DNA of 64,000 bases from a bacterium (GTDB taxonomy: Bacteria; Sysuimicrobiota; Sysuimicrobiia; Sysuimicrobiales; Segetimicrobiaceae): positions 1-64,000 of the forward strand of contig DATGHU010000026.1 of assembly GCA_035307765.1 (NCBI GenBank). The letters are read 5' to 3'. Every line of letters begins with the position of its first letter. The first letter of the stretch is position 1. The notes beneath the pieces were generated by a model. That model saw only the letters and a program-made list of their open reading frames with translations, did not search any database and was not told where the DNA came from. Made by a program: the position numbers and the translations under genes. Below, in pieces: positions 31,277 to 31,991 of this stretch.

Positions 31277-31286
31277 GCGCGGTGGA

Positions 31287-31514
31287 TCAGTGGCCGCAGC
31301 TGCACGCCCCGCCGCAGCCGCATCCACCCGACGAGCTGGTGTCGTCCCCGCCCCCGCGGGCCGCGGTCATGACGAGGATGGGGGTGTACACTCGACGGGT
31401 GTTGCCGTGGCCGCACTCGGGACACGCCGTCCTCTTTCGCGATTCATACTCCGCCACCGTCGCGGTCATCTCGAACTCGTGCCCGCACGACCGGCATTGA
31501 AATACGTATGTCAT
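31287..31514 (-). CDS. FmdB-family zinc-ribbon protein
   Basis: 75 residues from ATG 31514 (GGAGGAGG). Begins MTYVFQCRSCGHEFEMTATV with C-x2-C and later TACPECGHGNTRRVY, the FmdB putative regulatory pattern, and ends in a Gly/Cys-rich tail (GGCGCGGACSCGH) that may bind additional metal. FmdB-type proteins are small nucleic-acid or protein-binding ribbons, first named beside formamidase genes; a formamidase-like gene lies downstream in this run. Confidence 0.88.
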   Translation of the reverse strand: MTYVFQCRSCGHEFEMTATVAEYESRKRTACPECGHGNTRRVYTPILVMTAARGGGDDTSSSGGCGCGGACSCGH

Positions 31515-31529: not shown

Positions 31530-31991
31530 TCAGCCTTCGCGAATCTCCCAAGCATGGCTAATGGCGACGCAGCCTTTCAGCGTCTGGGCGATCGGACAGC
31601 CGCGCTCGAACACGGCGAGCGCGCGCTCGGCCTCCTGGCGCATTCCCGACGGGATCGTCAGGTGGTAGGTGACGCGGATCGCGGTCACCTTCATCACCCG
31701 CTCCGGAGCCTCAACCGTCCCTTCGGCCTCCGCCCACAGCTTCTCCGGGGCGCTGGCGATCCCGCGCGCCTCCAGCGCGCCGGCGAGGGTCCCGGTGAGT
31801 CAACCCGCCGCCGCGGCGACGAGGTGGTCCAGGGTGCTGGGGAGCTCCTCGTCGGGTTCCATCTTATAAAACGCCTTCACCCCAGTGTTCACTCCGTACC
31901 GGATCGGCTCGGGAAAATCCCCGATGAACGCCCGGCGGTTCGGGCGCTTGTCCTGGTAGATACGCACCCGCGCTATGTGAACGGGCTCCAC
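31530..31991 (-). CDS. OsmC-family protein with in-frame UGA at the family cysteine (candidate selenoprotein)
   Basis: The frame from GTG 31991 (GGGGGT upstream) runs MEPVHIARVRIYQDKRPNRR ... TLDHLVAAAAG, then TGA at 31802-31800, then LTGTLAGALEARGIASAPEK and on without interruption to GCPIAQTLKGCVAISHAWEI and a TGA stop at 31530. Total 153 residues with codon 64 as UGA. In OsmC relatives this position is the reactive cysteine (AAAG-C-LTG). Frame, spacing and family similarity are uninterrupted on both sides. Read as selenocysteine the protein is a normal-length OsmC peroxide- or thiol-handling enzyme. OsmC-like selenoproteins are known from metagenomes. Alternative: a nonsense mutation or base error, giving a 63-residue fragment. 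Confidence 0.75.
31764..31780 (-). promoter_or_regulatory. SECIS-like hairpin downstream of the UGA codon
   Basis: Read on the minus strand, GCGCGC (31780-31775), loop UGGAG (31774-31770), GCGCGC (31769-31764): six pairs, extendable by two more past a mismatch. The loop starts 26 bases after UGA and has G in its second position. This agrees with the bacterial SECIS model (short stem, G in the first two loop bases, roughly 16-37 bases from UGA). High GC makes chance hairpins common, so this is support, not proof. Confidence 0.5.

Follow-up and report, generated by a model that had tools for sequence, protein, structure and literature searches.

Proteins of the OsmC and Ohr type are thiol peroxidases with a peroxidatic and a resolving redox position. 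In Ohr, the catalytic glutamate lies 10 residues before the peroxidatic residue, the pair being Glu51 and Cys61 (PMC5962072). Within the superfamily, the YhfA proteins are a reported exception to this activity (PMC4069020). From the Sargasso Sea, an OsmC-like selenoprotein carrying a UxxT motif was described in 2005 (PMC1088965), and it also stands in the list of a 2026 review (PMC13188914). The original prediction for the present locus was therefore right to state that OsmC-like selenoproteins had already been reported in metagenomes. From the common UxxT motif, we infer that the Sargasso Sea family is the one modelled by NCBIfam as NF041052, ‘OsmC-related (seleno)protein’.

The window, by which we mean the whole 64,000-nucleotide stretch of DNA that was analysed, comes from a soil bacterium, a Segetimicrobium-like Sysuimicrobiota assembly of 3.82 Mb in 51 contigs that is 96% complete. 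It contains what is very probably a functional selenoprotein gene, in which UGA at codon 64 would be decoded as selenocysteine (Sec) by SelB and tRNA-Sec to give an OsmC-fold redox protein (Table 1). Coordinates and frame were confirmed, the TGA at codon 64 being the single internal interruption. Translated with TGA as a residue, the frame matches Pfam OsmC PF02566 with 54.8 bits (cut-off 27.5), and the match crosses the TGA, bearing out the similarity claimed for the part beyond it. Gene callers are expected to shorten the product to 63 residues.

Table 1. Features of the OsmC locus, in positions of the window
Feature	Position	Strand	Basis or remark
OsmC-domain selenoprotein gene (predicted), 153 residues, Sec at residue 64	31533..31991	minus	PF02566 match, AlphaFold model, 31 homologues
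GTG start codon	31989..31991	minus	
In-frame TGA, codon 64, predicted Sec, first (peroxidatic) redox position	31800..31802	minus	TGA in 31/31 homologues and 34/34 genomes (not phylogenetically independent)
bSECIS-type hairpin GCGCGC-UGGAG-GCGCGC	31764..31780	minus	bSECIS limits; synonymous diversity minimum at codons 71-76
Hairpin, 5' arm	31780-31775	minus	
Hairpin, loop UGGAG	31774-31770	minus	
Hairpin, 3' arm	31769-31764	minus	
Cys132 codon, resolving cysteine, CP motif	31596..31598	minus	Invariant
True terminator TGA of the OsmC gene	31530..31532	minus	
Small zinc-ribbon gene, FmdB-like, PF09723, all Cys, without TGA	31283..31514	minus	Stop approximate

The closest described family, NF041052, has much in common with that of the window: the OsmC fold, Sec in place of the first redox Cys, a retained second Cys and Sec machinery in the host. 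The differences are that the window family reaches only about 21 bits (21.2) with the NF041052 model, whose curated cut-off is 95, and that its motif is U[LM]TG rather than UxxT (GFULLTQ). The searches gave no Cys form of it, but at least one stop-free match to NF041052 that is clearly over the cut-off. In the tree, the window family forms its own clade (support 100/99; 28 rows, all Sec), and its assignment to NF041052 was rejected on score and on this separate placement. As judged from sequence, it is a distinct variant among the already known OsmC-like selenoproteins, and no report of it was found in the openly accessible literature, which excludes subscription papers. A single clade of both Sec groups was marginally rejected (p-AU 0.035, to be read with caution because of long branches), a hint that Cys-to-Sec events in OsmC proteins were separate, or that Cys reversions took place. 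The two families occur as separate genes in G001-G003, G026, G073, G090, G179 and G316.

Members of NF041052 (L105-L116, with GFULLTQ or GFUEEVQ) were seen in G073, G316, G179, G028, G036, G090, G022, G002, G003, G026, G001 and G031; G179 and G316 have three copies apiece. In the window's genome, the model gives one weak stop-free match, a Cys paralogue below the cut-off. The stop-free (Cys) protein L117 (G033:C67:6591-6998) is over the cut-off and groups with Sysuimicrobiota Sec members (97/87), which may reflect a switch from Sec to Cys, or from Cys to Sec, within one phylum.

E. coli OsmC and X. fastidiosa Ohr (TIGR03562) resemble the window protein in fold and in their two aligned redox positions, but where these OsmC/Ohr thiol peroxidases have a peroxidatic Cys the window protein has the predicted Sec, and the catalytic Glu position is not conserved in it. 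Its score with the TIGR03562 subfamily is 32 bits against a cut-off of 85.8. E. coli YhfA likewise belongs to the same fold family and has both redox positions, but it is all-Cys and stands apart in the tree.

A close homologue was found in 29 of 193 genomes, with TGA at codon 64 in each, and two further MAGs, labelled Acidobacteria and Actinobacteria, have a homologue with TGA at the same codon. Read codon by codon, all 31 close homologues have TGA here, and other in-frame stops are absent inside the match. A profile search of 386 genomes found members in 34 (E <= 1e-12), each with exactly one internal TGA; the two counts (31/31 and 34/34) are not phylogenetically independent. The profile included rows with Cys at the codon-64 position, so the search was unbiased against Cys forms, and in those 386 genomes it returned no stop-free (Cys) member. 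The family is spread over several bacterial phyla. Its 31 homologues start at about the same residue and end in TGA, TAG or TAA, and among the nearest with a named record is Candidatus Segetimicrobium genomatis (phylum Sysuimicrobiota), 90% identical. No plasmid record was found encoding a relative. In alignments, codon 64 takes the place of the first Cys of T. thermophilus OsmC (1ukk), of E. coli OsmC and of E. coli YhfA, and the U64 column is Cys in all non-Sec OsmC rows compared. The claim that TGA stands where relatives have Cys thus holds for non-Sec OsmC proteins, but not for the close relatives, which all have TGA; the supposed AAAG-C-LTG setting was not found among them.

The original prediction took the lineage to decode UGA as Sec, a view supported by the TGA in close homologues and by the Sec machinery, all of which is present in the same genome. 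The tRNA-Sec (72.1 bits, UCA anticodon, C13:88379-88468) has a SelB gene close by, SelA is split, with one part at the end of C13 and the other at the start of C50, and SelD (L019, G000:C34:292205-293125) has an in-frame TGA of its own and is likely to be itself a selenoprotein. Of the 29 genomes with the OsmC gene, 23 have tRNA-Sec by a strict search and four more have SelB over the cut-off; the assemblies of the remaining two are fragmented, with a completeness of 68% and 87%. tRNA-Sec is enriched with the gene (23/29 versus 77/164 genomes, p = 0.001, with phylogeny uncontrolled), but it is common in Sysuimicrobiota and so the co-occurrence is only modestly informative.

Downstream of the UGA lies the hairpin that the original prediction had placed 26 bases away. 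Its 6 bp and UGGAG loop stand, but nucleotide 26 after the UGA is where the loop starts, and the stem starts at nucleotide 20. Bacterial SECIS elements are limited to a loop of 3-9 nt with a G in the first two positions, a stem of 4-16 bp, a distance of 16-37 nt from the UGA and an MFE of <= -7.5 kcal/mol (PMC13188914). The hairpin lies within these limits, as had been claimed, at 25 nt from the UGA and -10.3 kcal/mol with the 5-nt loop, or -11.2 if the outer U-G pair of the loop is taken as formed. The gene is GC-rich and its synonymous shuffles often pass (about 36% yield a hairpin within the bSECIS limits, and 15% a hairpin of equal or greater stability), so the hairpin alone is weak evidence and within chance. 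It was rejected as stand-alone proof for this reason and because the 55-nt fold favours another structure (z = +1.2); an Rfam search at the site matched no SECIS-type family. The comparative evidence is more telling. The ratio of synonymous diversity to expectation is 0.36 at codons 71-76, which form the hairpin and are the lowest six-codon stretch in the gene, against 0.86 before and 0.92 after, and the Ala75 codon is GCG in 29 of 29. Because the drop falls exactly across the hairpin codons, they appear to be under RNA-level selection, as for a SECIS. Of the 31 sequences, 28 retain the 6-bp stem, among them G-U variants and one compensatory change (L050, G-C to A-U), while the divergent L045, L047 and L057 have lost it and have another bSECIS-passing hairpin with a loop distance of 17-19.

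An AlphaFold model built with the family alignment has the OsmC fold (pLDDT 96.2), and its best PDB matches in Foldseek are all OsmC/Ohr proteins. Asp55, Gly63, Sec64, Gly67, Arg76, Cys132 and Pro133 are invariant in the family, and Arg19, in the N-terminal hairpin, is nearly so. Sec64 and Cys132 align with the peroxidatic and resolving positions of Ohr/OsmC, and the invariance of Cys132 makes a Sec-Cys redox pair likely. In the mechanism that we propose, the RNA hairpin some 19-20 nt downstream would recruit SelB and Sec-tRNA-Sec, and UGA at codon 64 would be decoded as Sec to give a thiol/selenol redox protein of 153 residues with the OsmC fold. If the analogy to Ohr/OsmC holds, the Sec64 selenolate may attack a (hydro)peroxide or a similar oxidised substrate. 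The selenenic acid would then be resolved by Cys132 as a selenenylsulfide, which a cellular dithiol, perhaps a lipoylated protein or one of thioredoxin type, could reduce.

Readings in which codon 64 is not Sec have to be weighed against this. TGC and TGT are one base from TGA and the source is a metagenome assembly, so a Cys codon mutated in a pseudogene or misread in sequencing might be suspected, but this is refuted by the homologues, which carry the same TGA in separate assemblies (31/31, and 34/34 genomes in the profile search, neither count being phylogenetically independent). Moreover, dN is far below dS in close pairs on either side of the TGA (in the pair with G001, 0.036/1.46 for the part ahead of it and 0.061/0.78 for the part beyond), which indicates that the downstream half is translated and under selection; a pseudogene is thereby excluded, and the probability left to a decayed or misread gene is negligible. 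An in-frame TGA is by itself silent on which residue is inserted, and UGA might be read as Trp or Gly, suppressed non-specifically or reassigned throughout the genome. We consider this very improbable: TGA terminates the OsmC gene and several of its neighbours, an internal TGA is absent from SelA and SelB but present in SelD and the OsmC paralogues, the site is the redox Cys in all non-Sec relatives compared, and a tRNA-Sec with a UCA anticodon is present. SECIS-dependent decoding generally depends on selenium, and the UGA could thus be a regulatory stop, selenium status deciding between the full protein and a 63-residue peptide with a role of its own. However, there is no sign of a separate role for residues 1-63, a partial OsmC domain without the resolving Cys, and purifying selection is similar on both halves, which leaves a regulated short form with little probability.

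With Sec accepted at codon 64, a selenoprotein with a YhfA-like, transferase or reductase activity on another substrate is a possible if rather doubtful alternative to a peroxidase. At the offset of the Ohr catalytic glutamate, 10 residues before the active-site residue, the family has a nearly invariant Leu54, with the invariant Asp55 adjacent. The exception reported for the YhfA subfamily (PMC4069020) also speaks for such an activity, and no conserved operon tying the gene to peroxide defence was found in the neighbourhoods compared. Against this, the protein retains its OsmC fold and its two redox positions, and Arg19 of the N-terminal hairpin, a possible counterpart of the catalytic Arg in the N-terminal loop of Ohr/OsmC hydroperoxidases, is nearly invariant. 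With Leu54 where Ohr has Glu, the peroxide-handling role that the original prediction gave to the enzyme is no more than likely, the activity and substrate being proposed by analogy.

When five genomes were searched for all their OsmC genes, a second group came to light, with TGA at the resolving cysteine (RUPLYRT or RUPLYGT) and the first Cys intact. It comprises four genomes (L154, L157, L158 and L159 in G000, G001, G002 and G026), one of them the window's, where the gene (L154, G000:C4:12389-12670) lies on the minus strand with its TGA at about C4:12431-12433. In all four the UGA is followed by a bSECIS-type hairpin whose loop starts 20 nt from it; the hairpin reads CGGUCGC-GGUC-GCGACCG in three and GGUCGC-AGUU-GCGACC in G026, and the group is a clade with support 100/98. 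On these four sequences, the same fold would carry Sec at the opposite redox position in the same genome. We think it fairly probable that OsmC has been recruited more than once as a selenoprotein, giving a separate Sec-only family of several phyla and a resolving-Sec paralogue, with both Sec-Cys arrangements in one organism.

With the window family, the prokaryotic selenoproteome gains an enzyme family that is apparently Sec-only and that the NCBIfam OsmC selenoprotein model fails to reach. To our knowledge, nearly all known selenoproteins have Cys counterparts, and a family for which no Cys form was found is therefore a useful test of the reasons for keeping Sec. Together with the resolving-Sec paralogue, it offers a natural comparison of an attacking and a resolving Sec in one fold.

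The gene has as neighbours an FmdB-like zinc ribbon, a DRL oxidoreductase, a GGDEF protein, an enoyl-CoA hydratase and an S1 protein. Genomes of the genus share this set and those of the taxonomic family do so in part, but it differs beyond the family, so the gene seems to encode a stand-alone enzyme and not to belong to a fixed operon; an operon-based assignment of function was rejected, the neighbourhood being common only to genomes of that taxonomic family. The zinc-ribbon gene starts 15 nt downstream of the selenoprotein gene, and the pairing is kept in same-genus genomes and in two from a different genus of the taxonomic family. A UxxU selenoprotein of the FmdB family is listed in the 2026 review (PMC13188914); the copy in the window is all-Cys and ends in a Gly/Cys-rich tail, GGCGCGGACSCGH. 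In G073, a member of the codon-64 Sec family adjoins a YeeE/YedE-type sulphur transporter gene (PF04143; L077:2792-3658), a transporter family in which selenoproteins are also listed.
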